Assembly: GCA_947650365.1 (NCBI GenBank)
Contig: OX393552.1
Span: 45,285,740 to 45,349,739 of the forward strand
DNA: 64,000 nt
DNA from: Chamaelirium japonicum
Lineage: Eukaryota; Streptophyta; Magnoliopsida; Liliales; Melanthiaceae
Direction: 5' to 3'
Positions 8,801 to 62,129 of the stretch are shown here, piece after piece. The translations under genes were made by a program, and so were the position numbers. Position 1 is the first letter of the stretch. Every line of letters begins with the position of its first letter. A model generated the notes under the pieces. The model did no database searches and was not told where the DNA came from. It saw nothing but the letters and a program-made list of their open reading frames with translations.

Positions 8801-11800
8801 ATGCACTTGCTAATCAACTTCAACCACATTCAAAGAGACAATCTTTCAATAAAATAATGAAAATTTATTCATTAGCTCATAGCTTGGCAACCTAAATTCT
8901 AAAACTTTGTTTTTTTTTATTAATCAAAACATCGGTCTCAACTAACGAATAAACATCACATCAAAAGTTAACGAAGAAAAGGAAAATGCAGGATCATGAA
9001 GGCTAATATAAAATCATTGGGCACAATCCACGAACCACCAGAGAGAAGATGGAATGAAAGATCTCAAACATTGTAAAAGGCAACATATGTTACAACATAG
9101 ACCCTAAGATATTGATCTATGTTTTAGATATCTATAGAACATACAACTTCGGGATCTTCATACAAATTGATGTCCAATTGATCACCAAGCATTCTTCCCG
9201 GTTGGCTACTCTGGTTCTTTTTATTATTAGTTGTCCTGCTACATTTTGATGTCGATGAAGAGAAAAAGAGAGAGAGAGAACCTTCTTAAAAGTACCATAG
9301 CTCCTTCAGTCCTGCGATGTATAACACCCCCCCCTCCCTTTTGTGCTCATCGGGAGGGGGTATTCCGACATATTGGTGGTATAGTAACCTCATTGCCACC
9401 CACCGATGCCCCACCGGTAGCAATGCTTGGGGTTGTCTGTGCAAGGGCAAACTATCGTGGGGATCCCAGAGATGCCCTGGTTGATCCCATTGATGACCAC
9501 CCGAGTGTTCTTCCCGACCTTCACTTGTGAAACCGAGCAATTTGTGGTTTCATCTCAATTTGTTGTCTGTGCAAGGGCAAACCATTGTGGGGATCCCAGA
9601 GATGACCTGGTTGATCCCATTGATGACCACCCGAGTGTTCTTCCCAGCCTTCACTTGTGAAACCGAGCAATTTGTGGTCTCATCTCTCTGTGTAGCAACT
9701 TTCTTGGGCTTCTTCAACTTTGGCGGCTTGTTGGGGCGACCCTGGGATCTCTTCTTCAACTCGTCCATAGGAGTTGGGGCTTGGTCATCCTTGGGGATAT
9801 CCACAATCTAACTGTACCCAAGGTTGAGATCACCACATCCACCCTCTAGATCGCTTTCACCAGGCTCTCGTGATCGTATATATCCACACAAAAATAAAAC
9901 CTTAAGGAAAACACGATCCAAAGAGCGAAGAAAATTACGGCTAGAGTTTAGAGGAGTACATGGAGGATGATGGCGTCGGAGCTCTTGAATCCATCCAGCG
10001 CCTTGGCCTTGGTAGGGTCAAAGGGGGAGGCAGCCCTCACCAAGGCAAAGGTGGGGTGGCCCGACAGCATGCTTGCCTCCACGACGAACCTCACGATGTA
10101 CCCCATCGCCCCAATGATCAAGATCTTGCATGGAATCCCCCATTCGAGAGGGATTTCATTGTGTCGCGCTCTGTCAAGGGGGGAGAGAGACATGGGTGCG
10201 TGTGGAATGAGATAGAGAGAGACGGGGGGGGGAGCGAGAAAGTTACCGAAACTATAATCACACTCCCTGCTTTATTAAGGGAAGATGGCAGGAAACTGGG
10301 ATCCCCGCGGATAGGGATGGCAACGGTGTAGTTTCGATGCGATTTTGGGCAAAACCGAAATCGCACCGCAACACCGAAACTCCATCGCATCGCGACGGTG
10401 TACCATTATGTAAAACTGAAACTGCACCATGTGGTGCAGTGTGGTGACCCACGGTTTATCATTATAATGGCCTAAGCGATGCAGTTTTATAAAATTTTGG
10501 TCAAAACCAAAACCACACCGCTACACTAAAATCGAAACCGCACCGCGATATTTTATATTTTGGCAAACCAAAACCACACCATGAGGTGCGGTTTACCGCA
10601 GTTTTTGATTTTAAACGGCACTATTGCCATCCCTACCCGCGGACGAAGGTTAGGTGCAACGGACGGTTGTATGCAAGCATTAAGAGTACGAGTGGCGAGA
10701 GTTTAGGTTTTATAAACGGAAACCTCAACTAAATTGATACGACTATGATTGCAAGGGGAGTGCAGAAAACCACGCTTGAGATTCTGCCAACCCGTCTTGC
10801 ATGCGATTTATGTCATGCATTGGATCTATTTTCCCCGTGATTGAGTCACAACAAATCACATGGCATGATCACAACCATCTAGATCCCATCTTCTCCATGA
10901 TAGGATTGCATCCTCATTTTTTTGGCAAGATAATAATGGCATTGTTGGTTTTTGTTTTTTGGTTTTTTTGGTAAGACAATGATGGCAATACTGGTGTAAC
11001 GGATTCCCTCTCTCAAAGCATGTGGTGCACCCCTCACAATTCAATCCTAACCCCCTTTTTATCCTCTTTCCCAAAGCAATCCTAATCATTCTTTATCTCC
11101 CCCCCCCCCACCCCCCACCCCCCCCCCCACACACACACACATAAAACCAAGCTTTATTATATATGTGTGTGTGTGTGATCTAGAACATTAATAGCAGGCA
11201 TCAAAAAATTCACAACTTATATAAAACATGCAAGAATAAATAGCCCAAATCAATCAAAAGGTAAGGATTGTGTGGGAGTCGGGGCCAGCGACTATAAGCC
11301 CTTGAGCTCTCAGACGACTCGAGCACTCAATAATGAGGGGAAACCATAGAGTGAGAGTCAAGAAAGGGAGTTTAAAGAGGGAATGTGTGAGTCGGGTACA
11401 GGCAGGCGGCGACAAACCTCGAGCTCTTCGATGGTCTAGACAGAAGAAAATCTCGATGAGGGTCACAGAGTGAGATTGAGAGTCAAGAGAGGGAGTCGAG
11501 GGATGGATTGCATGCGGCGAGGGGTGGGTCAAGTAGCGAATCATTGAGCTCCCAGACTGTTGATAAGACCTCGATGAGAGAGGGAGAGAGACCGCGAGAG
11601 ATCTAATCGGGAAAGAGAATTGAGTAAATAGGGTACGGTTTCAAGTATATATGATTCATTTTCCAGGTTTTGAGTAAAGTATCTGCATCCCGTCGCAACT
11701 ACGCTAAACCAACAATGAAATAGTGACCGACTCACACCTGTTATCGACTAGCAAACAACAATCAATCATATTCCACCATATATTGTTGTATAATTGTATC

Positions 11801-12736
11801 TATACCTTATCGCTATTGTATCCCCATGTATCCAAGTACGTGCTTTATTTTTTATTTAGGATATGTCTGAAACGTACCCGATACGGATATGACACGTGGT
11901 AAGCACGGGATCTTGAACAATATGTGTTTCATAGTTCTGCACCAAAGCTATAAATAAGAGTACCTAATAGACAAACATATCAAAATAGATTCCAAACTAG
12001 TAAATACTAGCTTTAAAAAAAAATAAAGAATCAAGAAATTTGGTGTAATGTGGCCAAAAGTAAACGTGGAAGAATGGAGGCCAATTTAGAAGGCACTCAC
12101 CTGCCAATTCTCTATTCATCTTGATTTCGTAATCAGTAACTAGATTGAGTAATCAACATGCGTGACTTAAGAAAAAGGTCTTGAAAATATCAAAAAGTAC
12201 TCTATCTTAACGATAACCAACACAATTTCTTCCAGGGGTATAGTATGTTTTCTGCTTGTGTGCTCATTTGAGATATTGCCATACAACAAATATGAAGGTT
12301 GCATGTTTGATGCTCTCAAAGTCAGAAGTGCTCTTATCTTAACAATAAAAAGCACAATTTCTTTTAGTGGTATAGTGCCTTTTCAGCTTGGGTGCTCATT
12401 TGATATACTTTCATATTTAAGATGTGAAGCAAGGTTTTAAATCATGATAGCGGTCTCGGTATCAAACAACAGCTGAAATAGTCATACCGATCAGTTCAGA
12501 TCGAAACTCATTTAAGGGCTTCTCTTGAAAAAACTAAAAAGTCAAAAAAATTAAAATTTTTGAAAAATAAACAAAAAATCTTTAAAAAGGGAATTGATTA
12601 GAGAAGAAAGAAGTATTGTGAACATATCTGTGTGAGTTACAATGTTCTGAAAGGCTCAAGGCGCACATGAGGCGCAAAGGTCTCCTAGAGCCTAGGCGCA
12701 AGTCGCAACTCAAGGCGCGTGCCTGATTGAAGTAAG

Positions 12737-12782
<46 letters not shown>

Positions 12783-12917
12783 GCATGCTATAATGCGGCA
12801 TGCGGTAAGTGCGGCACCGCACCGCACCGCAGCCGTCTGATGCACTCTTCGTGCATCGCATGCACACAGTGCTGCATCAGACGGCTACAGTGCGGTGCCG
12901 CACTTACCGCATGCCGC

Positions 12918-12976
<59 letters not shown>

Positions 12977-15900
12977 AACATACATAACTAAACTAAGGAA
13001 ATGAATCTTAAGACAAAAGATAAATTGGATAGATCGTTGTTGCAACAACACAAATGTTATAGCCAGTGTAGTCAAGGCATCAAGGTGATGCCTAGACGAT
13101 TTGGTCTGCCTAGGTGAGGCGGTGCCTAGGCGATAAAAATTAAATATATTAAATAAATATAAGTCATATATCTACATAAGTAATTTGTAAAGCAACATGA
13201 CTCTATAAAACCAAACGAGTCTAAGAAAACTCAATTTGAACCTGACTAATTTAAAAAAAAAAAAAAACCAATTACAAAACTAGGCACCCAGGCGGTGGCC
13301 TAGGCGGCCACCTAGACTTCACCGCCCGCCTAGCCATGGCCTAGGCGGTCGGGGGTCCAAAACGCCTAGGCGATGGCCTAGGTGGAGCCTAGGCGACGCC
13401 TTGACTACACTGGTTGTAGCCTTGTAGGTTTGAATTACAGCTCTAAATAAGCCATTTAAAATATATTAAATCTTCAAATATGTATAATTCAAATTCAATA
13501 ACCAGTTATAAGCTATCAAATGTGATATTATAACAAACAAAAAATAAATAGTGAATGATTGAATGTGTTATTTCATCCGTGTGCTTGTGCACATGCTTCT
13601 AAATCAGTATTAAATATGCAAATCGAGAAAGAAAAGAAAATTCATTGTATCATGTAATAGTTGAAATAATATCAAAGTCATCAAATCAAACCCACAATTG
13701 CTCATATGGTCCTACCTAAGAACTATAACAAATAATTTTGAATGGAAATAATATTCAATGATTTCAATCAATGTGCCAATATTCAGACTACTGTAATCAT
13801 GAATCAAATCTACTTAATAATTTAATCATATTGCCAAAAATATCAATTGCAAGCACATAATTGCACATGGTTCAACTAGGCGCGCCTTTTTTGCACCTGG
13901 AGCCTAGAGCCTAGGCGCACGCCTTACACCTAAGCGCGCGCCTTTCTAACAGAGCCTGGCCTTGTGCTTTTTGAGGCGCAGGGGGTGAGCCTAGTTGAGC
14001 CTGAGCCTAGGCGTGCGCCTTTAATAACACTGATGAGTTAGGTGTGATTTTGTGAACGATTAGTGGGGCATTTATAGGGTAAGAGGGAACCAAAGGAATC
14101 AAATGCACAAATGCTACATCCAAGAAACATATCATGGATTCTCATGGTTGAGTAGGTGGGGAAAAGGCTTCAAACCCAGCTGGGAATGGATTGAAAATGG
14201 GCTTGAATGGTCTAAACATAGGCCCAACACACATTGGGAGAAATGATGCCCGAGACCGAGTTTGAATCAACCGCATCGGAAAATCATATTGGTCCACATC
14301 GATCGGTATGGGATGATATAGAACCAACTAGACAGATACGGGCCCAGCATTGGTACCGAAGGGGCGTCGGTCTCCAAAAAACAAGTCGTATCGGCCTGTA
14401 TAACTAGGTATCGCTCGAGTTCTGAAATCATGATGTGAAGGTAGCATGTTCAATGCACTCTACCACAACTACGTTAATTACAAAAGACTGATCGCATAAA
14501 AATTTGTGAAACTTATATCTAGATACAAGAAACAAATGCAAGTAATCTCAAACACATGGTCAGATGGAGAGCAGCCAGCCTAGGTTGATCAATAGCCATA
14601 CCCATAATCAACAAGCCCCATCTTAACTATTAGGGATTGGCTTACAGCAATCTTCAGTGGGTCAATACAAATCAATAGAAGGGAGACAGGGAAGTTTTTC
14701 AAGTACTAGCTTTTGCACAAAACCAATTCTGAGCTTTCAGATATTAGACCACTTCTCCTCCCGAGGAAAGAAAAAATGCAAGACTTACAAATTCTTTTCA
14801 ATCAATTTCCCAACAACGAGTTATGTGATGAAAAAGAAGCATGTGCTTAGAGGTAGCAATTTTTGACCTGAATCACCTGACCCACAACCACAAAAGCCAG
14901 CTAAGAAACAGATACGGATAACCATATTTCATACAAGAACTAAGTTTAGATCAGGAACTCATGACCTGCACATTAAATGAGCCCTGTATGAGTGACACTG
15001 TATGACCTGTTTGGTCATTATTATAGTTAAATTATGGTATACTTGCAATCATCCCAAACACATGCGTATGCACTAAAACTAGTAAATAGGAGAAGAAACA
15101 TGCTAAAAGTCAACCCGAATCAGCTGTGATCATACAGGCCAAGAGGATCAGGTGGATGTTAAAGGATTACAATAGTTTGCAAGTGGGTTGTAGATTGGAA
15201 TCATTGGATGTCTATCAACTAGTCTCACCAACTAGCAATACGAACGACAAAGTTCAACCCAAACGTGGGTCGGGTCATGTATGGGTTGAACCCGCACACC
15301 CCACACCTCTAAGTACAAGAAGGATGACCCAATCTAAATACAACCTCAAAAGATCTGTGTAAGGTTCCTAAGAGATAACAATGCAATGATTCCAAAGTGT
15401 GCCATGTATTTGTAGTCTGTCAGTTGGTTCCCAAAATTACCTGTCGATAACCAACAACTATTGACTCCTTAAGTAGACACATGTACAGATAGAGAGAGAG
15501 CAATTCAGTACCACCTGTGGCTGGTGACCCTAAATGTTTTAGCAGTCCAAAACAATCAGGAACACAAACACATTTATATTTCAAGAAAATTACGCTTCGT
15601 AGAAGATTGATGCCAAATGATTGGATCAGACAGATTGTTTACCAGAGTATGAAGAATCGAGGAGCAATTTTCATCATCTTCCACATTCACCATAGTGTTT
15701 ACAGGAAACTAGTGATACATCAAGTCTGAGTGGCTCTAACAGAATACGACACTTTCCAACTATCACCACATATACACATAATGTGCTGGTGTGTATGTGT
15801 TCGTGCATGTGTGCATGGGTCTGGAAATGTGACAGTATGGAGAAATGAAGACGAAAAGAGGCATGGACAGCCATACACATGAATATATAAGAGAAGAATG

Positions 15901-18900
15901 AGTCAGATAAGTCACCTTTGTTCACGGTCCTTTTCTAAACTATTTTCAAATTAGCATAACATATAGAAAGATAATATGTTGGGGTGTATGTGTCAATGTT
16001 GTCAGAACCAAACCGGTTTGTGTACCGGTCCGGTTCGGCCGGTCCGGTTCACCGGCCCAACAAACACAGTCAAACCCAGAGAGAGTGAGAGAGCATTTGT
16101 GCACCCAAAAAAAAAAAACGGTTCGTTTATACCTAAAACCACCCGGCCCGACGGTTCAATACCGGTTCGTTTTCCAACACCGGTTAATATCGCATACAGA
16201 CCGGTTTCTCTACCAGTTCGCCAGTTCCCGGGGCCCGGTCCGGCCGGTCCGGTTTTAATAACATTGGTATGTGTGTGTCCGTGTTTGTGCATGTGTCTGG
16301 AAGAAAGACTGTGTAGGAGATCTATAGCCTATAGGTTAAAAGAGGCGTGGACAAGCATATACATGAATAGCTACGAGAAGAATGAATTGGATAGGATATC
16401 TCACCTCCTTTGTTCATAGTCTTTTTTTCTTGATTCCAGTTTAACCGCATTCCGGGGGCCTGCAGATTGATTTTCTGCTGATCTGTCAGGAGAATACACT
16501 TCTGGACTGATATCATCAGCATGGAACTTCTTCAGACCCTTATCTGCAGGCAGATCTTTACTCTTGTGAAAGGAATCAATTCTACGATGTCCATCTTCCC
16601 TGAAATTTTGAACACAAGGTTAATAGTACCAAATATAACTTAGAAAGGAAAATTAAAAGTTCAGCTTAATGGGCAATATAGAATCCAACCTAGCACGAAC
16701 GGTTTCTTCTTCCTCCCTATTAGTTTCTGGGCTGTCATGACGAGGCACCCGTTCCCTAGCATGCCTAACAGGACTCCCAGACATGCTACGAGACCTTCAC
16801 ATGACGACAAAAATAATCACAAATACATGTGGTGGGAAGGCCGGCAAGTACTAAAATTTCAACACCATTTTGATGACAGATGCCTACCTCCTATTTCTCC
16901 TAGAATTTGCTAGCCGTGCACGATTCAGAGACTCTGACCGAGTTGGAGATTTTTCAGATGGTACAACAGGAACTCTATTGCGGATGTCACTTTGATCCCT
17001 CAAATCGCGTTGGGGAGACCTTAAAGAAGTTGGCAATCGGCGTGATACAGAGTCTGAAAACTTGCGCCTCGAATCAGGTTCAGCCACCTCTCTATCCAAG
17101 GCATAGTGACGAGGTGATCTCTTTTCATGTGTCCTGTAAGAGATTGCAATTAGGCAGGTATATGTATGCACCACATAAGTTATATTTTTTTTCTATTTTT
17201 GATAAAATGCCAAAAGGAAGACAGCCATTAGACCAAAGTACAATTAAGACTAACCTGTAGGCATATGAATCTCGATACCGTTTGGATTCAACACCATTAG
17301 TACGGCTATCACGTTCCCTACTCAAACTCCTGCGAGTTCGATATGATGGGCTACGGCTCCTATATGGACTGCGACTCCTGCACATATACTACTAGATTTA
17401 ATATGCAATTTCCTACAGCAATGTTAACACAGCACATTAAAACAGAGAACCAATATCTTTCGACGACAAGACCTTTGTCTTTGTTGTGGAGACAATTGAG
17501 AATCTGAGGCAAGACCTCTAGGTGAATGAACAGGTGACCGCCTTCGGTGACCAGGAGACCTACGTTGAGGTGATTTTCTCCTCAAGGGAGACGGGGACCT
17601 GCGCCAGATAGGGCCCCTGCGCCGGTTGGGAGAAGGTGATCTCCGACGAACTGGAGACCTACGACGTGATGGAGAAGATCTTCGGTGCAATGGGGAAGGA
17701 GATCTACGACGCAAAAATGATGATGCTGTCCGATAAGCATGAGGAGATCTCCGTCGAAAGGGAGAGGGAGATCTATGCCGTACACGTGAAGCTGATCTTC
17801 GCCTGCTTCTTCTTGAAGGAGACCGAGCGTTCCGGGGTGAATGTCGGTGATGAGGAGAAATGGAACGACGAGGTGGAGACCTGGACCTCTTTACCGGAGA
17901 AACAGATCGTTTTGCTGGAGATCTATGCCGCCCCTCAGAGGAAATTGAACACCTTTGGGACTGAGATGATACAGATACACTCCTTGATTTATGTCCTTCC
18001 CTGTCAAAAGGCGAGAATGGTCAATTTAAGTTCAAAGAAATAATCCTTAAAAGAGATAGCAGCTATGTGCACACAAGAGACTTGTATCGAAGTTAAACTA
18101 ATACACTAAAAAATTTTGAATAAATTATCCGCAAGGCGGCTAAGAACAGCTGTTTACAAGATGAACTGATGGAAAGTAAGCATGAAATGCAGGTACTATA
18201 CAGGCAGGCCAAGGACCTTCGAGAATCACATTGCAGTGTATCCTTATCAATTAAGCAAAAACCAAATACTTTGTTCTCCGCAACTATTTATTTAAGTTTT
18301 CAAAATCATTTTCTATAACCACACAGGCAAACAAAATGAAATGTTAGTGTTAAAATGTCAACACCATTAAATTCAACAGGCCATCCCTAAAGCAGTTGGA
18401 TGTACCAAATGAAGCCAAATGTAAAAGACCTTAAGTTGTATATGTCAGGTCCATGGCAAGATGGAAAACAAATACTTGAAATACATAAAAATATTTCAAC
18501 AAAAATCCTAATTCGCTAACAAAACCTATTCCTAGCTCCCTAACTAATGCTATCTCCAGTAGGAATTTTATCTTGAGTAAGGCTTCTATTCCTAGTTTTA
18601 TTGAGTAGGGTGTCATTAAGGAATATAAATCTTAATTAATTTAGAAACCTTAGGAAATAAATAAATGATTCTTTCATATTGTGTCTTGACTTGCGTTAGA
18701 TATCCAAATAATAAATATATGGCATGTGTCATGGCAAAGGGAAAAATACAGAGTTTTATAAAGGGCTGGAGGATGATAAATCACAAGTTTCTATATAAAG
18801 GAAAGTCAAGGCTTGGAAGAATATAAGATGAGTACTCTGAGTAACTCCTGGATTTCGAAAATGACTTGCTGCTTGACCGAGTTGCTGAAGGCATATTCCT

Positions 18901-19014
18901 GCAAAAATAAGCCAATACCCACATTTATTAAAACTCATAATACCAACATTACTAAGAAAAGAGAAGAAACATCAAACCAAACTAGAGGGGAGAGAGAGAG
19001 AGAGAGAGAGAGAA

Positions 19015-19047
<33 letters not shown>

Positions 19048-22000
19048 AGAGGGGGGGGGGTTACCGATGAGGGGTCTGGGAATGATGTTTACGTGGAGAC
19101 TTGGATGAATGTGGAGAATCAGAGTACCTAAAGAAAGAGAATTGATTTAGTTTATGGAAACCACCAATATAAAAAGAAAAAACATTCACTAGAATTGGAT
19201 AAAATATCATCCCACTCACTTACGAAAATATATAGAATAGAAAAGACATCTAATTATCATATTGACTTACAATCAATCAAAGTCATTAACCTTTAGCTCA
19301 ACGAAAACCAGTAGCAAAAAAAAAACGATTGAATAGAAAAGGCATCTAATTCTTGTTTTGGCGTACATCCAATAAAATAAACCAAAACTGCTGAAAATCA
19401 CTGGAAAAATATGCGACAATTAGTGATGGAATGCATGCTGAAGATGAAAAACTATTGAACAACTCAAGCAACAAAAAGTTCAAATACATAAAACAAGATG
19501 ACTCGGGCGTGCTAACTTGATAATAGCGTGCCAAATAGATCTGAACACATGAATAAAAACTGATAGTTCACTCCAAATGGAGCATCACTCAACTCGCACA
19601 ATAAGAAAAAGCACCCATGGAAATCGAGAAAAAATAAACAATCAGACGTTTATCTCGACTCTATAGACAAACGCATGCTGGTACACACAAGCACAGGCAC
19701 AAAATTCACGCGATGCCCTAGCAAGCGCAACACACTGAAACAACAATTGCAGAAGCAGACCCAACAGAAAAATGGAAAAAACAGTAAACTAAATGAGAAA
19801 GTTAACAACATTTTCGTAGAAATTCAGTAAATAAAAGATAATAAAAGCATGTTGGATAAAAGATTCTGAAACGTACTTCAAACTAATGTCAACAAGGAAA
19901 AAAAAAACATTAGATGACAGCCTACCTAATGAAAGCAAACATGAATTTACAGGTGAACAAATTCCAAGATGTTCAAATGCAATGATTTTTATCATCAGTA
20001 CCACTTGTCTGCAACTACTTAGAAATAAAGTAGATAGGAGATAAATAAACACATCCGTACCAAACCCCTACAAGATCAAGATGTTCATTGACAATACAAA
20101 GCATCAGTCAGCTATTACTATACCCCAACCCAAACATAGATCTGATCGTTTAATATCAAATAGTAGCATGTTCATCAATAACATGACAAACTAGACAGAA
20201 AAACAAAGCACGCTGATGCCTTTCCAGCAATCAGAAATGCAACTCACAATTATAATATGAGAAGTCAGGGAAGTTTAATGAATTACATGTGAAATTAGAA
20301 CCTGCTTACTAGGGGCCAAGTTAATGCCATTTATTCAATGAACAACCACATAAACTTTAACTTATCAGACTCGTCCACTTTAGCAAGGCTTGACTACTGA
20401 TATCTCAACTAACCCATCACCCAATAGTGCAAAAGGTAGAAACAATGGACCCACTTTGGGCTCGAATTAATCCATCCAAGAATACGCACCGACCCACTAG
20501 CAAGTTAAGTGGGTCGGTGTGCATTCCCGGAGTGGGTCCATTGCCCGAATGGTTTCAGCCTTTTAGGACACCCACCACCGAGTGGGTCGGTGTGCATTCC
20601 CGGAGAGATTAGTCTGAGCTCGAAGTGGGTCCACTACCCGAAAGGTTTCGGGATACCCGTCAATGTCAAAAAAAAAAAAAAACAATCCTTTTGCACTACT
20701 GGGTGATGGGTGAGTTGAGATATCAATAGTCAAGCCTTGCTTGGGTCAAAAGTAGGAAGAAACAAACCCACCAGGGGATAGGAGAGTTGACAAGCAACTG
20801 ATGCTACGGTGAGGAGGTTGTGTGTTCGACTCCCCACCACCTAGATTTACCTAAGAGTTAGGTGGAAAATTACGAGTGGGTCGGGCTTCACTTCCGGAGG
20901 GATTAGTCCGAGCCCGAAGTGGGCCGTTGCCCAAAAGGGTTTGGGACACCCACCGATCTCAGAAAAAAAAAAAAAAAGATAAGAAACAAAAATTAGTCTA
21001 GAGAAAAGGCAGATAACTCAGTAGCTCATATTTTACTACCTTGTTCAAAGCATAAATACTTGGCAAAGGCTAAAAAATAGAGATTAAAATGTTGGACAGA
21101 TCCGGTACAGATATAAAAGTTGTAAAACTGTTATCAGGAAATTGATATGTGTGATTACCAAACCATTCCTACAGTTCACATTCTTTCGCACATTAACATA
21201 TGCAGGTACGGTTAGCATAATTTAACAAAATTGTTGTATGTTCGCACAGATTATCCAGCAGGGTATGACGAATACTGTTAAAAATTTTACTATAGCTTCA
21301 CAATCTGTCTTAAAGTCCAAATGTCAGAGTAACCAAACATCTAACAAGTCTTATCCCATCTACATGATGTCAGTAATATCCTATTAAGATTCACCATCAT
21401 TTGCTAATGATTTACGATTTACGAAAGGACCTCAACCTGACAACAAAACTTTGAATTGTTGAATTTTATGAAGGCAACTTTCCAGTGATCAATGAAGCTT
21501 ACTCCATAATAGACTCGTAATTGTTTTAGTAAATGGAAGACCAAGGACAGATTATTATACGATACCATCCATATCGCGTGGTATATGCCGTAATGTAGCA
21601 TGGTATTGGACCAAACTAAGTTGACTCAGTGTTGTTATCTCTATTTCAAAGGTTACTTAGGGAACTTAACGTTTTATGGCCTCCAAAATCCATATGAAGC
21701 TCATAACCATCCAAAATTAATTTATGTTCTATGAAATACCCAACCTAGTTAACTACCGATCAGACCAAAAATCTACTATCTTCAACTCCCTTCATACCAA
21801 GTAAGCCATGTGTTTAATGCAGCCAGTAATTGGATCCTTAAGAAAGGAGGAATCGTCTTTGCTCAATGCACTCAAATCCTCATCCAACAAGCATTGTTTA
21901 TAGAATCGTGTAAGCACGCGTTCCCTCATCGAGTGATCAATTGTCCTTTGGTCTCTTAATTATCTTGACCATTGTACTTAAGTTTTCAATGCTCAGGTGC

Positions 22001-23693
22001 ATGTAGACGTTGTTTCAGATCTTTCAAGCATTGCCAACTAGATCTTCAAATTAGGGACAGTGCTTCATAAGGTACAGATATATCGCACATAGCTCTTATA
22101 GGGCTAGGGTATTGCTTCAAGTGTTTTTTTTTTCCTTATTTACATTAGTAAATCTTTTTTTGCTTGCAGAATTGTGATACGCGACATACACTACTAATGG
22201 CAAGTTCAGGTTTTCAAGGCCAAATAAGTAATGGGTTAGTGGGTCAGGAGATAGCACAAGAGAGTACGGTTTTGTGTAGTTAATTGTGACCAATCTCTTT
22301 CATGTTGTTGGTTTTTCTAACTTAAAACTGAAAATTGGATAGATTTGTTGGCATTTATAGTCATCTGTTATGGATTCTGTCATGCATGGACCCATTTTCC
22401 TTTCTTGACATAATATTAAACCATATGTTAACCACCTTCAAGGTGCAGGATTCATTAAATTGCAAAATCAGGCCTTAAGCTTTAGATTTAGAAGAATTTA
22501 AAGCATCACATGCTATGTACAAATTTCCACGGAAGTTTTTGGAGTTTTTGCAAAGAAATCATGTGATTGTATACTAAAACTAATGTTAGATGTAAAAGTT
22601 TGATGAATAGGCTCTTTGTGTAAGTTTTGGCACTACATTGATATAGGTGCAAAAACTCACTAGAAGCCCAGCAAATGGGAAGAACGGTGAAGAGGATAAA
22701 GGGTAACAAATTAATATATATGTGATGATATTCATGGGATTAATTCTATTGTGATATTAATTTCATTGATTGATTCTTCCATATTAGTGAATTGAGTGGT
22801 ATGGCATCATGCAACCAAACACTGCCTATATATCTTCGTTCTTTCGTTAATTTTGCACAATAGATTAATTGAATATCTATCTAATTTTAAAATTGTGTAT
22901 ATCTAAAAAATAACTATATTTTTTGGAAGAAATTGGTGTAAAGTCCCTGAAATAGATCTCATTTAACGTTAAGGACGGCTAATGCTTGTAGTTAGCGATA
23001 AGTCTCGTTGATTAGAGTTTGATAAGTTACGTAGTGTCACAGGGGCCTATCCTTAGTCAGTTTTTTAAAATCGGACCGGATCGGTCGGTTGAACCGATTT
23101 GGACTGGAACCAAGAGATAACTCGGTTCAAAATGTCAACCAGTCGGTTCTATGATAAAACCATTTGAGAAAAATTTTATAATAATAATTAGATAAGCTTT
23201 GTATCTCCTAGGCTTCGAGCATGAATACAGGCTATGAAGCACCGACACTCTCGAGGCCTCAACGTGTCCGTGTCCGTGTCCGACACGTGTCGGACACCCA
23301 CACTCGTCCGACACTCTCCGACACATATCGGACACACCAAAAAACATGTCTTCTATGAAAAAAGGTTGTCCGACACATGTCGGAACGTGTCGGATGCGTG
23401 TCGGATATTACCGGAGAGGCTTTTTTCTCATTTGAAGATGTTGGGGTTCTTGAGATTGCGAATCTTTCCATCAATGAGCCGGATATGGAGGCCGTGATCT
23501 TCACGTCGATGGTAATGATGTGGTAACACTTGACGTTGGCCTTGATGGATGATGATTTTATGCGTATTCTATTTGTTTTTTTGTGTTTTGAATGTTTGAA
23601 AACTATACACTTCAATCATTTATGATGTTTGTTGGAGATTTTTTTTTGTTAACTATTAGCATTATGTTTGATTATAAATCATAATATAAGACT

Positions 23694-23751
<58 letters not shown>

Positions 23752-26700
23752 CAGCATGTCCCTTAACGTGTCCGTGTCCTGGTTTTTGGAAAAATATCGT
23801 GTCGGCGTGTCCGTGTCGTGTCGTGTCCGTGTCCGTGTCCCGTGTCCGTGCTTCTTAGAATACAAGTGGATGAAGATTCATAAACAACATCATACCAATT
23901 ACAACCACCTTTTTTTATGCTTTATGGCGCAGGTACTATTTATCCTATGATTCGTCTGGTTCAATCGGTTTGAACCGGATAGGGGACCTTTTGGTTCGAT
24001 GTCCGATTCAGTTTTGAAAACATTATCCCTAACAACTAACATTAGCTCCCGCGGGAGCCACTCCAGCAAGAATAGGGAGTCTTTCGATCAGAGTACTTTA
24101 CACAGCCACGACAGGTGCATCTCACCCATACTCGTTTTACATTCAATCCGACGACTCTAACTCTGTACCAGTGCAGTTAAGGCGAGCTGAGGCGCCCGCC
24201 TGAGGTGAGAGGCTCCGAACATAATAAGTGTAAACTCCAGGTAGAATCACAATTAATAGAGAAGTGAGAGAGAGGATAATGGAAAGAGATGAAAAGTGAG
24301 AAAGCGAGAGACAAATAGAGAGAATTAGAGAGAGTGTGTGGGAGTTCAGAGAATAGGTAAGATGAAACAACTTCGTTCTCATATTCAATTTCATTACATA
24401 TAAATACAACATCACACTAACCCCTCTCCCACATATAACTGACAACACATAACCCATTTCACACATCCCTCAATAGTTAACATAACTACTCCATACAAGT
24501 ATACAACCGCCTTACACAACCGAACCACACAACCAACTCACATAACTGCCTACAGCTTCCACACGTGGTAGTCCATCCTTATGCACCCGGTCACGTATAT
24601 AAGTCGGAGCGAGGTGCCTGCCTTACACCATGAGACGCTCGAGACGCGAGACAATGGAGACACCCGCCTCATTTAATCGAGGGTTTAGGCTGAAGCCAAA
24701 GTTGAATCACACCCGTTCTTTTGCATGCCATTTGCGGTCGAGTGTGATTCACCAGTCGGGCTGGGTGTAAATGGGTAACGAACGGTTGTGATTCAGTTTT
24801 GGCTTTAACCTATCTGACCATATGAGGTTATAACTTCAGGATCCCAAGCCCGTGAACTCAAAACTTCCACGCGACTGAGCGATTGGCCCGATCGGGTTAG
24901 GATTTCAACGTTGGTACTGCAGACCACCTTCAAAACTTTCTCTTCACTCAGTTTTTTAATTCAGGTTTAGATTCAGTTGTATAGTATCATAATTCTTTAT
25001 ATGTTTACTTCACACTTCAAATCACATTATTTTCATCTTAATTGCAGACATCCAAACCTAGATCCCAATCTTAATTGCAAACATCTAAGCTTAGATCCCA
25101 ATCTTAATTGCAGACATCCAAGCCTAAATCCCAAGAAGAGGATGATATAGATTATAGAACTTGATGATGATGAGTTTTATTGATGTTTCAACTAGCTATT
25201 TTATAATTTATCTATATATATTTTTTATCGTTTTATTTTTTTTTTGCACGCCTTATTTCAATAAGGCGCTCGCCACTCGCCTTAGGCGCCAGAAAAGTTG
25301 AGCGCCTTGAGTCCTCCTTAATGCCTTGACAACACTACTCCATAGACAATAGGGAACGATCGTCCGATCTGCACTTTTACACACAGCCACAACAGGTGCA
25401 TCTCACCCATATCCTTTTTTCATTCAATTTAACAGTTTCTTTATCCGTACACAATAGGGAACGGTCAAGATTCATCCAATTTGCACTTCACACACAACCA
25501 CAACAGGTGCATCTCACTGATACTGTCAACCCATTTTATATTCAATCCAACGATCGAGATGCATCGAGAGCGTCCCCCATTGGAGCAAAAATCTTCCCTT
25601 TGGAATCGAAAAAAGTCAACAAGAACCCCTAGCAAAAAGTGCTCTTTATCCAGGGACTTGATGTGAACAGGACTTGTTTGTGTCCTTATTGCAAGTATGA
25701 ACTTATTATAGGGATCGGTAACTAAGTCACCCTATTTTCCCGAGCATCGCCTGAGTTTCTACTTTCTTACTAGTTCATAAAAAGTGAAAAAAAAACTGAT
25801 TTTTTAACGATCTCTTGGGAAATAAAGAAGGTCCAAGCACACAAAATTAATATGCAAAGATGACAATGTTGAAATGAATGTGTGGTAAAAGTAAAACTAG
25901 GAAAGATAGAATGGGTATATCAAAGGAAGCATAGGAGTTACACCAAGTGAGGAAAAAATAATTAAGAAACAATTGAGACGGTAACGGCATGTGCAGGAAA
26001 CTCATGAGGCTCCGATACGGAGAGGGCTTCCAATTTGTATGGAGATAGGTAGAAGCCTGCAGTGACAATGAAGGTACAATCAAATGACTAACGAAGAAAG
26101 AAGGATAAGGTTAATCCAGAATAGTAGGGTAAGACTTGATGGCTATCATCACTATATTGCTAGGTAAATAGTATGCCTACGAGGACGGATCCACTAAAAT
26201 CCTCATTTATTGTCAACAATACTAAAATATTCTTGTACATTCGGTTATCAAATGTATTTACAATGCTTCAATAAGCATATTAGATTTGTAAGGCAATGAT
26301 TGTAATGGAATATATATATCGGCGTCCAAATTTGGGAAGTTCAATTGCAAAAAAAAAATGGGAAGTCATTATCAAAGTTTCATGGATTTTTCCTCTATTT
26401 AGACATTGGAAGTTTAATATTGGTTACAAAGAATATCGGGTCAAGAAAAGTATGAACTGCTTCAAATTAAGTTATATGAGGATAAATGTAATATACAATC
26501 ATGAAATTAAGCTTATGAGTCGCACACTTGCACCATGAAATAGTGGGAAAGGATAGGGGAACATATATTAAGAAAGATGAAAAGACTTTTGGGAAACTAA
26601 TTCGAATTTATGATGTATCGGATTCTAAAGAGGAAGAAAATACTTTAAACCTTGCAAACTAGGCATATTTTAGCTAGTTTATACTTATTTGAAGTTTTTA

Positions 26701-32480: not shown

Positions 32481-33840
32481 TTTAACAAAATGACCTTCAA
32501 CTCTCGCTTATTGCTGGGAATATAGACCGATTGTTTTTTGCATTATTTTTCTAATCCTCTCCACACATGCAAAATGCTCTATCCGATCACTTTTAAAAAA
32601 TTATGATCATTTAAAAACCCCCCTAAGTGCTAAAAAGAAAAGAGGAAAATGAAAACTCAGGTTTTCAACCGCCCCTCGTCGTCGGAGATCGTCGGGCTAG
32701 TGTCATTTCGTGTCCACGACATCGTTGCCAAAAGCCACATGTCGCAGTAAAAAGATACTCTTAACCGTTACTTGACTAACTTACAATGGCGCACGTGTAA
32801 CACACATGTGGCTAGGGGTGTAAAGTGGGCCGGGTCGGGCCTAGAGATGTCAAGCCCGGATGGGCCCGTCGGGCCAAACCTCGAGCCAAGGGTCTAAATA
32901 TATTTGGAATATCGGATCGGACCGGGCCACGGGCCAGATTTGGACTTAAAATAGGGTGTTTAATAAAAAAATATGGACACGGTAGGTTTGAAAACACAAC
33001 CTTTAAGTGGTAAGAGTAAGCCATAAACCACTACACCATATTTTTATATATTTAAATTCATGGTCATTATATATATAATAAATATACAGTAATTATATTG
33101 AGATCCCGGGCTGGTTTGTAACTGATAAGTTTAGGCATGTTAAAAAACTAAAAAATAAATCTATTTAGACGGGTTAATTAGAAAAAACATAAGATGCCAT
33201 ATGAAACACACTAATCTCTAAATTTGTACACCTATGGATGGATGAAAATAATTATATGGACTCCCTTCTCTTTGAGTTAGGCTGATCTTTTGCCTTTATG
33301 GTGGATTTATTTATGCTCTGTGCGGCGATATTATAGGCAAAGGCATGGCTCGAACAATGGTCTACTCAAACAGGTGATGTACTCATTGCGAGCTCTCTCC
33401 AAAAAAAAAATTGGATGTGTTACCATGTGGGAGGGTCTAATCTTTGTTGGCTTAATTTGTTTGTCCAACCCAATCATTGAAAAATTACATGTAAGCCTTT
33501 TACTGTTGAGTCATGATACTACTTGCGCTTCTGAATATCAGTTCAATACATCACACCGGTTCAAGATCAACTGAAGACTCAGCAGAGTATCTCAGGGCTT
33601 TAAATGCTCACTTGAGAGCCATGTGATGTGTGTGATTACAGGGATAGAATAGAGATTCTAGATCGTATCATTTTATGTGTGTTTTTCATTTTTATCCTTT
33701 TCGATGATTCGACGTAATTGTAATTGGTTTTCATGTTAGTGTTGTAGCTCGTGTGTCCTGAGAGTGGATTTTCAATATTAACATTAATAAAGATGATTTT
33801 TGTTATTGCTTTAATTAGAATACTGCTTTGGTGTATGTTA
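32481..33840. other. Intergenic, with a partial GGGCCGGGTC-type MITE
   Basis: At 32814 TAGGGGTGTAAAG is followed by GGGCCGGGTCGGGCC and GCCCGTCGGGCC motifs up to about 32940, the look of a hAT-like MITE left end. TACACCTA at about 33225 could be its right end, but no target duplication matches. No gene is seen. Confidence 0.4.
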
Positions 33841-42547: not shown

Positions 42548-42716
42548 TAGGGGTGACAATGGGTCGGGTCGGGTCGGGTTTTGGTCGGGTTGAGACATTG
42601 ATACAAGTTAGAAATGTGCCAGCATATACAAGACTGACGCAAAACACCCAACCCGAACTAGACCCGTTAAATAGATGGGTTAACAACTTAAACCCAAATC
42701 CGACTTGATAAATACC
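42548..42716. mobile_element. Truncated hAT-like MITE, GGGTCGGG family
   Basis: Begins TAGGGGTGACAATGGGTCGG and continues GGGTTGAGACATTGATACAAG ... AACACCCAACCCGAAC, matching the element that starts at 63797 (TAGGGGTGGCATTGGGTCGG, GGGTTGAGACATAGGTATAA). No right end is seen, so it is truncated or decayed. Confidence 0.55.
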
Positions 42717-43275
42717 AACCTTATAAAAAAAATTCAGCACAATATCTTGCTCAAATCCTTAACTTTTCAAGTGGTCACCTTACCCTAAAACATCAGCAAG
42801 TTTCTTCAAAATCAGCAAAGCACATTAGATTGAACTCACTATTTTGTTGGATCATGCTGGTGTGTTGAATATGTTGCATGGATCTGTTTTTTTTTTTCCT
42901 TCTGTTTCGTAGTTCTAGTCGTGTTTTGCAAATTGCCTTTTTTTGACATTCTTCGATCTGAATTTTGTAGCTGATACTGCCTTTTTCTATTGGCAAATGG
43001 TTTGTACTTGCACGTTACCAATTATCTTGTGTGAGCTATCATTGCTTATATCTAACACTTTGATCCAGTCTTTTGGTCCCACTAAAAATGTAATTTGATT
43101 TTCAGTTATATTGAGTCGACTCTCATCTGCCATGATACCAGACGAGTGAAATGACTGAGGACATGCTGCCTGTGTGACTACATCGCTCACACATAAATAA
43201 ACCTCTCAACTATTTTTTAAATTCTATTTGTGTATTTTAAAAATTATGTTTCACAAAAATGATTGTTTTCAACAG

Positions 43276-49269: not shown

Positions 49270-51590
49270 GCGATTTACCGGTCGAAAAACCGTTCATGGT
49301 GCACGTTACATGATTAAAATTTTCTTAGAAACTAATCTATATGTGCGTACATGTGTATACACGTGAATCGATCACCCTAATGGCAATCTAACGATACAAA
49401 TTTCTAGCATGCATATAATTCATAGACTACGCTAGATCTACATGTTAGAGTCTTGCATATTTTAACCACGGAGAATTGTTTTCTTTGTCGATGGAGACAA
49501 AAGATCGTCCGCAAAGAAGTCGACGGTTTGCTGGAAGACGATGCCTTTTTGTTCACTCGATCTCACACGGTATACGAAATATCGCTCTCGGGTCTCTAAA
49601 TACCTTTGAAGAATGATCATTCTCCTTATACGAAACGCCATGCAAGAAAAACAAAGTCGCAAGCAAGGGAGTCGAGAGAGACGAGAGAGAATGAACAAAT
49701 GAGAGAAGAGAGAGAAGGTTCGGGTATAGCAAAGAGCCCGAACGGCCCCCGCTCTCCTTCTACTCTTATATAGGGCCGACCCTATGTAAGATGAGCACTC
49801 CTACAGGTTATGGTCGGTCCCCCCTTTTTCCTCCACCTATTTCTCCTCTTATCTCTCTTATTTCCCTAGATTATAGGAGTGATTTTGACTCGATCAAACA
49901 TCCATAATTTATCCCTATGACCGGTCCTATTATGGGGGGAGACAAATCCCTAAAATCAAGGGGTTGGCCTTGACTTGGTCTCCCACACATAAGGTCGCCC
50001 CCCACTAGTGCATAGTGGCATATGGTTTGACTAAAACGCCCATATGTCGCTAGTTAGTCGTTCCTCATGTGCGAGACTTAGCAAGACACTCATAAGTAAA
50101 GCACACTAGTGATTTCACTATTCATCGAGGTTCCTGAAGGGTGCCCCTAGTAAAGTCAACTAGTCAACTCGCAACATGTCCCGGTGTATTGCACCAATAT
50201 AGCGGAATCCACTTATGGCAAGGGATAACTACATGCATCTGTACTAGTCTAGGGTTTTCCTTTAGTACAAAGGGATGACAATGGTGCGGTTTCGGTGCGG
50301 TTTTGGGCAAAACCGAAACCTCACCACCACACCGAAACCGCACCGCACCACGACGGTGTACCGTATGTAAAACCAAAATCGCACCATGCAGTGCGATGCA
50401 TCCGGCTTAATATTATAATGGTCTAAACGGTGCAATTTTTTACAGTTTTGGGCAAAACCGAAACCGCACCGCTCCGTGATGGTTTAATATTTTGGCAAAC
50501 CAAAACCGCACCATGCAGTGCGGTTTTTCATGGTTCTCGGTTTTAAACCGCACCGTTGCCATCCCTACATAATAGTTACACATCTACCGTGCACTAGTGC
50601 AAAGCACACACGGAGCATAGGCATAGACTTCTTGCTTCCTCTAACTACGTCGTGTGTTTTGAGGAGATGGTTCAAGGGCCGTATATAATATGGATAAGGT
50701 GAAATATTTAGGGACCAGGATTCATGCTTCTTGAACTCGATCAACACACTACCCGAGTTACCATCAATCCTCTGAGTTCGAGTTAACATGCGTAGCCACC
50801 TAGAGTGTGACGTAGGCTGTACTCCAATTCCTCCGGACTTACTATATTATCCTATATACCCCTGTTATCTGCGTAGTAGTAGTAAACCCGCTGTCCCTCG
50901 ACTTAGTGCCATGGCGCAACTCAAGCGGTGGAGAATGTCGTCAGACTCGAGTGCTCATATGACTCAGTTCCTTCCAGGTTGACCATATACATTGTACCAC
51001 TGATTATCCCGTCGAGTAATCGAACCCGATCAATAGTCCAACTAATGACCACTAGGCCTAGATTTGGTACAACGTAAGTCAGACCAAGGAACGCACCTCC
51101 TATAAGGGGTGTGAATGACCTGCAGGAGTGGCATGCTGATACGATACCAATCGGGTAACCCAACACACCATGGTTTTGGATTACGTAACCGAACCCTCAC
51201 ACATTGGTGTTCCAAAGCACCACACAATTAGTTAGCCTACCAGTTGTGGTTCCTCAGGGTTTATGACCGTTTTATCCTAAGCAGAAACACGACTTAGTAT
51301 GTCAGTGTCTGCTCACCGATCTATACACCGTGTTGGTTTCGTTTGGCCACATACGTTGTGTCTGCTGATGACCATAATGAAGACTCCCCATGCACTACCA
51401 TCCCCAACAACTTATCATGACAAGGTGACCAACCTGATCATAGTTGCGAACTGATTTAGGTTACATGGGACCAATCCACTTAGTCTTCAACTCAGTGGAC
51501 TATCATGTAGCCATGGCTCGCTGTTCTTGAAAGAACACGTAACTGTGTTACGTACCAACATGCATCTCATATAATAATATTTATTCTTTA
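49270..51590 (-). mobile_element. LTR-like non-coding repeat, copy B
   Basis: Inverted, diverged partner of 33840-35745. On the minus strand it carries a TATA box CCCTATATAAGAG at about 49765-49777 followed by a purine-rich leader, as in an LTR promoter. It contains a hAT-type MITE at about 50270-50567. It abuts a decayed copia gag region at 51.6 kb, but shares no sequence I can see with that element's own LTR, so it is probably a separate insertion. Confidence 0.6.
50270..50567. mobile_element. hAT-type MITE, second member of the GCGGTTTCGG family
   Basis: Ends AAGGGATGACAATGG and CCGTTGCCATCCCTA plus an interior of GGTGCGGTTT / AAACCGCACC and GGGCAAAACCGAAA motifs match the element at 10312-10635. 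No intact target duplication was found (TTAGTACA against CATAATAG), consistent with an older copy. Confidence 0.7.
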
Positions 51591-55926: not shown

Positions 55927-56041
55927 AATCACTTTAAAGAGAAAATAAATAAAAGATGCATAATTGTGTTTTCTTGCACGTCACAACGTCGGGTGGTGCT
56001 GCAGTTAGGGGTGAGACTTGGGCGGGTTGAAGGGTCTGATC

Positions 56042-57113
56042 TGTTGGATGTGTGTGTTGTAAAACCACACAACACAATGGGTTTTTAGTCCCATATCGGT
56101 AAGGGGAGAAATCCCCTACCAACATATAAGGATTTGCCCACTTCCCCCCAATAGTCATCACACCAGAGGAAGGGCTCCACTAGCTCACACACGTGCGCGC
56201 GTGCGTGCCGAGCCGAGCCGGGCCGGGCTTGGGCATAGGCTGGGCGGCGCGTGTGTGTGTGCGCCCGCGGACCCGGACACGATAGCACCTCCGAAATGGG
56301 CTGGTCCGCACCTGCCCTCTTTTTGTTTTTTGCTATTAACCCGTTGCTGCATGCGAGCCGTTACGAGAGCTGTAACGTGCGAGGTTAATGGGCTTAATCG
56401 CAGCCCATTAACCGCTCCCCTCTTTCAGCCTCCCATTAACAGCCCGAGGCCTATATAAGGCCCGGTGCAGCCATGGGATAAACACACTCCGAAAATCGGA
56501 ATTCCTCCCTGCTTACTGCCTCTCTCTCTCCCATTCTCTCGTGTCGTGTTGCTGTGGTGCTGCCCCTTTGCTCCGAAGAGACTCCCTCTCTCGGACCAAA
56601 GCCTTGCTGCGGTGCTACCTCCCGGCCTCGAGAAGATCGTCATCGAGTCGCTGGGTTCCTGAAAGTCTACGAGGTTCGCAAAACCTTCTTGGAGTCGTGC
56701 CGACGATAAGGAGGTCGCCTGACCGGGGTCGCCGTATCTCCGAGAACAATTGCCACGAGACCCGCACGAGGGGGGCAATAAGATTCTTGGGACAGTGCCT
56801 AGCACGCTTCGACCACAGGCCAGAGTTTCTAACTCTTCTTTTGTCCTAACATTAAATCTAAAATAATCGACTTGCATCTAATAGAGAAATCTAAATAATT
56901 AGATATATTTTAGATAGATTGTATCTCCCTTTTAGAAAAGTTCGGCAAGGTGAATGACGGTTCCATAGAACCCGCTCTGCCTTGGCAAACAATTTCTAAA
57001 AGAAATTTGTGACTTGTCCTTGTTTGCGAAAATAACATTTGCTAATCAATTTTAATATTAATAATTTGATTAAATCCTAAATTTGCTAGTTTAGAACGAA
57101 TAGATTTCCAACA
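56042..57113 (+). repeat. 5' LTR of the copia element
   Basis: 1072 bp. A TATA box CTATATAAGG at 56451-56460 marks the U3/R side. It lacks 53 bp present in the 3' LTR after TTTTTTGCTATTAA (about 56340). The 150-codon minus-strand frame inside is present in both LTRs and is not a gene. Confidence 0.93.
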
Positions 57114-57549
57114 ATCCAAGAATCTTATTGTTATTTAATCGTTCATCATATTATCATTCTATTGTGCATTTCATTTTGTTAGTATTGTTATCATAGAATA
57201 AATAGTTTCATTATTAGTTGTTAAAAGTTGCGCTATAGTTATTAGTCAAAATTAGTTCTCTATAAAAGTTAATTAAAAGCATACATTTTAGAAAAGACTA
57301 AGAGTCATTATTTGGAATATTCCACTACCTACGGTGTCTAGAAAGGCTTGACAAACCGGCATTAAATTGCCCAAGGTAGCTTGGTATTTGAGCGAGCCTA
57401 GTGCTCCACCTCCTACCTGGAGCCTATCTGGCCGTTAGGATTTGGAAGTTTCATTTTGACTTCTGAAAGTCAAATCTATACAGTGTGCTTTAAAATTGAC
57501 AAAACTTATTTTTTAATCCACATACTTCAACTTCTTACTTTGGTCCGAA

Positions 57550-60500: not shown

Positions 60501-60708
60501 CCCAAAACAATGGCACATGAAATTCGATGAAGTTATCTTATCCTATGGATTTGATATCAACACAACGGATGAATGTGTATACCATAAAGTAGATGGTAAT
60601 AATGTTGTCATCTTATGTTTGTATGTTGACGATATTCTGATATTCGGTTCAAACATACAAATCATAAATGATATATCAAACATTTTTTGTCCCAAAACTT
60701 TGACATGA
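57550..60708 (+). CDS. Copia gag-pol polyprotein, first frame (gag, protease, integrase, RT)
   Basis: 1052 codons. Gag starts [20 protein letters not shown]. The zinc knuckle is C280-x2-C283-x4-H288-x4-C293. The protease active site is D351-T352-G353. The integrase zinc site is H477, H482, C508 and C511, and its catalytic D537, D599 and E635 have D-x61-D-x35-E spacing. RT has the first aspartate at D940 ([11 protein letters not shown]) and YVDD at 1025-1028. The frame ends at a TGA about 80 bp after YVDD because of a one-base length change in the T-run at about 60681-60686. The second half of the polyprotein continues in another frame from 60687. All visible catalytic residues are intact, but the copy as given cannot make a continuous product. 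Confidence 0.95.
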
Positions 60709-61571
60709 AAGATTTAGGACAAGCCGACGTTATTTTGAACACTAAGATCATTAGGAAGGACAATGGTTTAGTGTTATCCCAATCCCACTATGTCGAGAAA
60801 ATCCTTAGGAAATTTTACGACCCCGATTGCCAACCGGTATCCACACCATATGATCCAAATACCCATCTGACAAAGAATACTGGACTTCCTAGACTACAGA
60901 GCGAGTATGCTCAAATCATAGGATCGCTAGGTTTTCTAGCAAACTATACTCGACCCGATATCGCTTACGCGGTAAATAGACTTAGTCGTTATACGTCTAA
61001 CCCGAATTTGTCCCATCGGAATGCGTTAGAAAGAATTTTTAGATATCTTAAGGGAACCATATCATACGGTCTCCACTATAGTGGATATCCAGCTGTATTA
61101 GAGGGATACTCTGATGCTAACTGGATTAGTGATTCAATAGATATTAAATCCACAACCGGATATGTATTCCTACTAGGAGGTGGAGCCATATCTTGGAAAT
61201 CCACCAAACAGACTGTTATAGCTAAGAGTACCATGGAATCAGAAATGATAGCGCTAGATACCACTAGCACAGAAGCAGAATGGCTTCGAGATCTTCTATA
61301 TGAGATCACATTGATAGAAAAGCCTTTACCGGCTATATCTATCCATTGTGATTGTCGATCAGCTATTGATAAATGTAATCAAGAAAACGCTGACGTGAAA
61401 ATAAATCAACATCTAAAAGTGAGACAGAGATCTCTCAGATATAAGATAAAAAATCAAATAATTGCCCTAGACTTTATTAGATCCGAAAAGAATTTGGCGG
61501 ATCATCTAACTAAGGGCCTATCTAGGACAGTGGTCTTAGAATCATCGAGGGGGATGGGATTAAGCCCATAA
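60687..61571 (+). pseudogene. Copia polyprotein, second frame (RT end, RNase H)
   Basis: Continues the polyprotein after the frame break: RT thumb ([25 protein letters not shown]) and RNase H with GYSDANW (Asp at about 61113), [20 protein letters not shown] and the downstream DCRSAI block. It ends at a normal stop. There is no other stop or break. It is not an independent gene, because its ATG lies inside the RT. Confidence 0.9.
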
Positions 61572-62129
61572 GAAAAATCACCGCAGTGGGAACCCAACCT
61601 CACAGAGGTTCAATGGGTAGAAACAAACTGTAGTAGTGATTGAAAATAAGGAGCACTGAATAATGCTCCCGTCCCTATGACGTCAGTGCTTATTAAAAGC
61701 AAGGGGCAGGATGAGTGTAAAACTCTTAATAAGTCCAAGACCCATGAGGCGGGGTGTCGCCTTGCTCACACCCCTATTAGGACTTACCTATATGTATGTC
61801 GTTGTGAGGCCGCAACTCTGGGACCAGGGCTGCTCCCTAGAAACATACAAGAAAAGATATATGCGCAAGGCCATTAATAGCGCAACCCGCTTAGAACCAT
61901 CGAAAACTGTACTACGTGTACTACTTGTAGAAACCCGATAAATGAGGCTGGTTCAAGGCGTAGTCCACCAAGCCCTCACGGATGTATACAACTGTACTAA
62001 GTGGAGGTTCAAACCGGAAGGTACCTACACCTACTGCGTAGTATAAGGAATCCAGCAAAGTCTTTTTATTTTACATTTTAAACTTTTTAATTATTTAATA
62101 TTTAGTGGTTTTAAACACATGTGGGGGAT
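61572..62129 (+). other. 3' non-coding region of the copia element
   Basis: Spacer between the RNase H stop and the 3' LTR. It has short frames without similarity. It ends in ACATGTGGGGGAT, a plausible polypurine tract. Confidence 0.7.

Follow-up and report, generated by a model that had tools for sequence, protein, structure and literature searches.

The 64,000-nucleotide stretch of Chamaelirium japonicum DNA analysed here (contig OX393552.1, positions 45,285,740 to 45,349,739; the window) contains what appear to be several families of non-autonomous hAT transposon relics whose ends would consist of two modules. The outer module, a tip some 13 bp long with the form TAGGG(A/G)TG(G/A)CAA or CA(A/G)TGTTnTnAAA, would be the part cut by the transposase; the inner one is an array of a short CG-containing motif to which a multimeric transposase would bind cooperatively through its BED zinc fingers. 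Where elements agree in tip and array but have little other sequence in common, one transposase would have mobilised them in trans, and different arrays would correspond to transposases of different BED specificity. We put the probability of this interpretation at roughly 0.7. The insertion footprints, tips, arrays and grouping described below were observed in the window, and from them we infer transposase binding, the involvement of BED fingers and movement in trans.

Elements and insertion footprints

The first-pass annotation of the window had proposed at least seven elements with 8-bp target-site duplications (TSDs), three of them perfect. Eight elements of its list were resolved, six with a TSD matching at 7/8 or better, and the three perfect duplications stood; E5 (23058) and E7 (24169), with 5/8 at their canonical ends, fell short of the claim. 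Among the eight two-ended elements of groups A to D, described below, the TSD matched at 8/8 in three, 7/8 in two, 5/8 in two and 0/8 in one (E1b). An off-site control for nine elements, with the left duplication itself excluded from the comparisons, gave, among 6735 comparisons, 30 that matched at 6/8 or better, two at 7/8 or better and none at 8/8. A blind scan for TSDs with terminal inverted repeats (TIRs) was non-discriminating, yielding six matches (two of them listed elements) versus two to seven in ten randomised windows, and the case for the elements therefore relies on footprints at the tips given here. In a tip-directed scan 12 pairs passed, five of them listed elements; the other seven were discarded as chance (off-site rate 334/51648).

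Group A comprises E1 (10312..10635; this and all other elements are recorded without strand), a decayed copy with the tip TAGGGATGGCAA, a GCGGTTT/AAACCG array and the TSD CCCGCGGA (8/8), and a second copy, E1b (50270..50567), in which the array is better kept. The two are 78.5% identical over 298 aligned columns and differ by 48 transitions and 16 transversions (Kimura two-parameter distance 0.264), with 12 of 29 CpG columns turned into TG or CA. Group B is marked by the tip TAGGGGTG and includes E8, of which a left piece (56006..56041) is paired with position 63782 by the TSD GCTGCAGT (8/8) and a right piece (63255..63782) carries CGGGTT/AACCCG arrays. Its other members are single ends: E9 (42548..42720, limit arbitrary), a left end for which the right end was not found; E10 (63797..64000), a left end with a GGGTCGGG array that runs past the window edge; and E11 (32813..32960, limit arbitrary), a lone end with a CGGGCC array and the weakest assignment of the set. 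E9 and E10 are 90.9% identical in a 33-bp match and 83% identical in one of 66 bp.

Group C consists of E2 (12640..14032), with the tip CA(A/G)TGTT, AGGCGC arrays near both ends and a TSD of 7/8; E3 (13064..13412), nested in E2, with the tip CAGTGTAGTCAAGGC, a CCTAGGCGG array and a TSD of 7/8; and the decayed E7 (24169..25337), with AGGCG arrays at its ends and a TSD that reaches 6/8 only when the ends are moved to 24168-25336. Group D consists of E4 (15994..16266), with the tip CAATGTT, a ACCGGTCCGG array and the TSD GTATGTGT (8/8), and the decayed E5 (23058..24025), whose TSD rises to 7/8 only with the ends moved to 23056-24023. E5 is split by E6 (23232..23858), which is nested in it and has the tip CTATGAAGCAC, a GTGTCCGACAC array and an 8-bp TSD of 7/8; an alternative end at 23857 gives a 9-bp TSD matching at 8/9. 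E1, E3 and E4 are 273-349 bp long, E7 is 1169 bp, and E2 is 1393 bp including its inserts. E1b and the TAGGGGTG ends at 32813 (weak), 42548 and 63797 were absent from the earlier list.

Three further observations concern these elements and their surroundings. Besides E3, E2 hosts a palindromic insert in its (AT)n tract (12789-12923), with perfect, CGG-rich 34-bp arms (TATAATGCGGCATGCGGTAAGTGCGGCACCGCAC), that looks like a TA-flanked miniature inverted-repeat transposable element (MITE). A CGGGT cluster at 28111-28168 has no recognisable tip and was excluded from the element set; it is possibly a truncated group B relic. The flanks of E7 (24100-24154, 25339-25428 and 25444-25553) carry a repeat some 50-75 bp long in diverged copies, with pieces 77-90% identical.

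Motif arrays

The leading GC-rich 6-mers were compared with 400 dinucleotide shuffles of each of the 12 elements or ends, and in every case they were commoner than the shuffles predict for the same word. For the words given next the excess is about 9- to 44-fold; observed and expected counts were 4 and 0.46 for AAACCG and 4 and 0.33 for ACCGCA in E1, 10 and 0.67 for AAACCG in E1b, 10 and 0.26 for AGGCGC in E2 (inserts left out), 15 and 0.37 for CTAGGC in E3, 8 and 0.82 for AACCGG in E4, 5 and 0.28 for AACCGA in E5, 17 and 1.34 for CGTGTC in E6, 6 and 0.30 for AAGGCG in E7, and 10 and 0.52 for AACCCG in E8 (over 56006-56041 and 63260-63782). A stricter test, in which the top word was set against the 99% point of each shuffle's best GC-rich word, was passed by eight of the 12 (E1b, E2, E3, E4, E5, E6, E8 and E9).

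The array words are distributed by element. GCGGTTT was limited to E1 (2) and E1b (7) among the elements, CGGTTC to E4 (5) and E5 (4), and GTGTCCG to E6 (10). AGGCG occurred 12 times in E2, 10 times each in E3 and E7, and once each in E8 and E10; ACCGG 17 times in E4, twice in E5 and once apiece in E6, E7 and E11; CGGGTT 10 times in E8, three times in E9, seven in E10 and once in E7; and GGGTCGGG three times in E9, four in E10 and once in E11. The words are also thinly present outside the elements, with 47 AGGCG and 51 ACCGG in the remaining 58.8 kb. In most elements both motif orientations are found inside single arms, and strictly inverted arms were rejected on that ground.

AGGCG, CCGG, TCCG, GCGG and TCGGG each contain CGG or CGC on one strand. 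The observed/expected (o/e) ratio of CpG was 1.18-1.41 in five of the 12 (E1, E1b, E4, E5 and E6) and 0.70-0.95 in the other seven, against a background median of 0.60 and a 97.5% point of 1.24 in 174 windows. A CpG excess was not upheld as a general rule: the AGGCG elements have ratios of 0.70-0.79, near a background of 0.70.

Grouping of the arms

To compare the arrays apart from the tips, arms of about 98 bp were stripped of their first 12 bp and clustered, unlabelled, by weighted 5-mers and average linkage (n = 20 arms). The linkage cut was picked by eye, with five clusters at 0.80 and 0.85 and seven to ten at 0.60-0.75. The resulting groups were A (10312, 50270), B (56006, 42548, 63797, 32813), C (12640, 13064, 24169) and D (15994, 23058), with 23232 alone. 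The nearest arm belonged to the same group for 19 of 20 arms, the sole miss being E11 (32813), which was closest to E4R (0.26) and not to group B; the opposite arm of the same element was nearest for 11 of the 16 arms of two-armed elements. Arms from random windows had a median similarity of 0.09, with 95% and 99% points of 0.217 and 0.278. Between elements, similarity was 0.29-0.44 (E2-E7) and 0.24-0.35 (E2-E3) in group C, 0.25-0.32 (E4-E5) in group D, and 0.39-0.46 for E8 against E9 and E10 in group B.

These results replace one motif per element, as the first-pass annotation had it, with about five motif sets; AGGCGC of E2 and CCTAGGCGG of E3, for example, have AGGCG and one tip class in common, and each group has a single tip class. 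Its description of inverted motif arms holds loosely, given the mixed orientations. Its proposal that the motif sets mark different transposases is retained, as plausible, for about five sets, with the hAT-like form and placement of the arrays and the shared pattern of tip and motif in its favour, and given up for single elements.

BLAST comparisons within C and within D gave short matches only (best E 2.8e-04); the window matches of E2 in the self-comparison are those among the matches listed. E2, E3 and E7, and likewise E4 and E5, thus pair a common tip and motif with only short other matches, as expected from a shared transposase; Ds1 similarly has only the tip and a few hexamers in common with Ac (PMC3260210; this and the other papers are cited from their available excerpts).

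Tips compared with arrays

Between groups C and D, in-register identity was 0.67 (209/312) over positions 1-13 and 0.28 (47/168), near chance, over positions 14-20; within C and within D it was 0.73 and 0.72 over the first interval and 0.45 and 0.52 over the second. Because the identity between these groups falls in this way, the tip seems to form one module and the array another, with boundaries such as CAATGTTATTAAA|ACCGG in E4R and CAGTGTTATTAAA|GGCGC in E2R. Identity between the two tip classes was 0.40-0.51 over positions 1-13.

A tentative extension, which we consider rather doubtful, is that plant hAT lineages hold the cut-site tip nearly fixed and swap the BED-recognition array as a module, that CpG in nearly every array lets DNA methylation gate binding, and that MITE ends would form a fossil catalogue of switches in BED-finger specificity, readable from genomes alone. 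Binding of the Ac transposase depends on hemimethylation of its sites (PMC5371812), and some of the groups here may have such a gate. The split between tip and array would lead to a direct prediction on how hAT families evade cross-mobilisation.

hAT identity and proposed array function

The hAT tip consensus is Y-A-R-N-G, and by eye 17 of 19 tips fit it, the exceptions being E1bL (AAGGG) and E5L (CAGTT). The literature gives the hAT tip as 'CA' (PMC4423477, table), with TIRs of 8-23 bp and an 8-bp TSD (PMC2528002). For the two tip classes, the hAT identity proposed in the first-pass annotation is well supported by TSDs and tips, and the two tip groups that it described were recovered in groups A to D.

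E6, at 23232, lies outside both classes and may not be hAT. That it is Mutator-like or of another non-hAT kind has nearly an even chance; one of the five sets would then stand outside the system, which would be compatible with our interpretation of the other groups. Its tip reads CTATG/CTAAG, and a 9-bp TSD (8/9) fits equally with an 8-bp one (7/8), target sites being 9 bp in Mutator and 8 bp in hAT (PMC4423477, table). At 8 bp, however, both ends begin CTA, and the array architecture resembles that of the other elements.

The form and placement of the arrays match hAT subterminal binding repeats, and by analogy with Ac, Tag1, Herves and Hermes, transposase-binding sites would be the best explanation for them. 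A range of BED specificities among these elements is plausible.

Several points weigh against this interpretation. No BED or hAT domain, and no transposase gene, was found in the 20 frames scanned of the 48 frames of at least 110 amino acids in the window. The arms of E3 and E7 have similarities of 0.19-0.22, about the 95% point of random windows. The tips of A and B show the same trend as those of C and D with a less sharp fall, from 0.72 (positions 1-13) to 0.59 (14-20), and beyond position 20 same-group tips of A to D have in-register identities of 0.31-0.47, so that this zone says little. For Hermes the initial proposal was the repeated word GTGGC, but the actual BED site is AAGT (PMC10368747); the motifs of Ac and Tol2 are said to differ between ends, unlike those here (PMC3143072); and some Ds1 elements move without AAACGG, while tested Ds-l elements were immobile despite having it (PMC3260210).

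Two further such points would also fit another origin of the arrays, as side effects of slippage during replication and of inverted repeats expanding at the ends of ageing MITEs, the grouping then reflecting common descent within a few families and not binding specificity. Four of the 12 arrays fail the shuffle maximum (E1, 4 versus 4; E7, 6 versus 6; E10, 7 versus 8; E11, 5 versus 6), and E1/E1b and E9/E10 have sequence in common by descent, aligning like ordinary relatives. Part of E1 is also duplicated internally (10342-10440 and 10494-10592, 72%). We nevertheless regard this origin as unlikely: the same array is found at both ends of single elements and across elements with short mutual matches only, and slippage does not explain why the words should be CG-rich in a window whose GC content is about 40%, where the CpG ratio is raised in the five elements noted above.

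Genomic setting

Judged by its gene and repeat content, the window reads as nuclear plant DNA. An SRRM1-like PWI/RS gene, predicted on the minus strand at 5094-32374, probably covers much of the left half. A PWI-domain exon at 31502-31906 matched Pfam PF01480 (E 4.8e-10) and PDB 1mp1, a Ser/Arg-related nuclear matrix protein (E 1.9e-10); further frames of this gene are RS-rich (17424-18017) and charged (5094-5933), and a Pfam scan of these two gave no match. The introns of this gene are thus the probable location of the elements at 10-25 kb.

A position inside a gene would suit the idea that the arrays are host transcription-factor sites multiplied by MITEs, as with E2F sites in Brassicaceae, where MITE-borne amplification of E2F motifs has been reported, including by hAT MITEs (PMC12595863). 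The arrays, however, lie at both ends beside the tips and are family-specific, which fits transposase sites, and we consider a host-factor origin very improbable.

The two pieces of E8 are separated by a 7.2-kb copia-type long terminal repeat (LTR) retroelement (56042..63254, plus strand), with TGATC on both sides, that is not part of the array system. Its LTRs run from 56042 to 57113 and from 62130 to 63254, and a frame of 1063 amino acids reads, by eye, as copia gag-pol. The LTR pair has 13 differences in 1072 gap-free columns, plus length differences (94.1% by BLAST with gaps); with so few differences, the retroelement seems to have inserted much later than the two group A copies diverged.

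Elsewhere in the window, a gene in one frame that encodes DUF3475 and DUF668 domains lies at 53831-55381 (minus strand), fragments of copia-type gag (Retrotran_gag_2) lie at 1030-1401 (below the curated cut-off) and 52025-52453, both on the minus strand, and a foldback element at 20382-20741 has 55-bp arms that are 95% complementary and spaced 250 bp apart.

Significance and comparison with known systems

Should the arrays be binding sites, pairing MITEs with transposases across plant genomes could supply many natural BED-finger/DNA pairs, enough to attempt learning a recognition code, and would reveal which transposase moved which MITE. The scope here is one locus, with old and decayed copies. 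One group B tip pattern had no matches in viral and genome contig collections, neither of which is expected to contain plant DNA, and no description of these motif sets was found in the open-licence literature among the matches listed.

The elements resemble maize Ac/Ds in their 8-bp TSD and CG-containing subterminal hexamers, Ac having the motif AAACGG in hexamers that act cooperatively (PMC3260210). The Ac tip C/TAGGGATGAAA, as given in the excerpts, matches the first 8 bp of group A; at positions 9-11 group A has GCA or ACA where Ac has AAA, so that in place of the full 11-bp tip it carries TAGGGATGGCA or (A)AGGGATGACA, and its word is AAACCG(C). The Ac/Ds trait of at least three AAACGG hexamers, itself not universal, being present in 17 of 331 Ds1 (PMC3260210), is absent from group A (one each in E1 and E1b); E10 has three, but on a TAGGGGTG tip.

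The group C and D elements have at most one AAACCC each and no TGACCC. Arabidopsis Tag1, which to go by a paper title reportedly has an N-terminal zinc finger, presumably has a tip resembling CAATGTTTTCA, as in group D. Its subterminal motifs are AAACCC and TGACCC (PMC3143072), and E8, E9 and E10 contain, respectively, 2, 2 and 3 AAACCC, 1, 0 and 2 TGACCC, and 2, 4 and 6 GACCC. These Tag1-like words are here on TAGGGGTG tips, and Tag1 was compared through its described motifs.

Hermes and Herves share the subterminal repeats with these elements: Hermes BED domains bind such repeats, multimerisation providing many fingers (PMC10368747), and the Herves transposase binds the subterminal motif CGATTCAT (PMC3143072). 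Their motifs, AAGT and CGATTCAT, are not the words found here. The closest parallel to the words themselves is with the hAT-19/CGGBP DNA-binding domains. Among hAT-related BED and Hermes-type domains that yielded a motif, most prefer a particular word that contains CGG or CGC, a preference that the array words here fit; some motifs, including those of two insect hAT transposases, are AT-rich, and the motifs of the four hAT-encoded domains that gave one have matches in the subterminal regions of the elements concerned (PMC8097297). That set covers mostly animals and one fungus and comes from protein-binding arrays, whereas the present one is from a plant and has the motif side only. The general idea of domain-specific words is, in the excerpted text, already published (PMC8097297), and the window offers a new example of a known architecture, in which the comparison of tips with arrays and the inventory of five motif sets in one window are, to us, new in detail.

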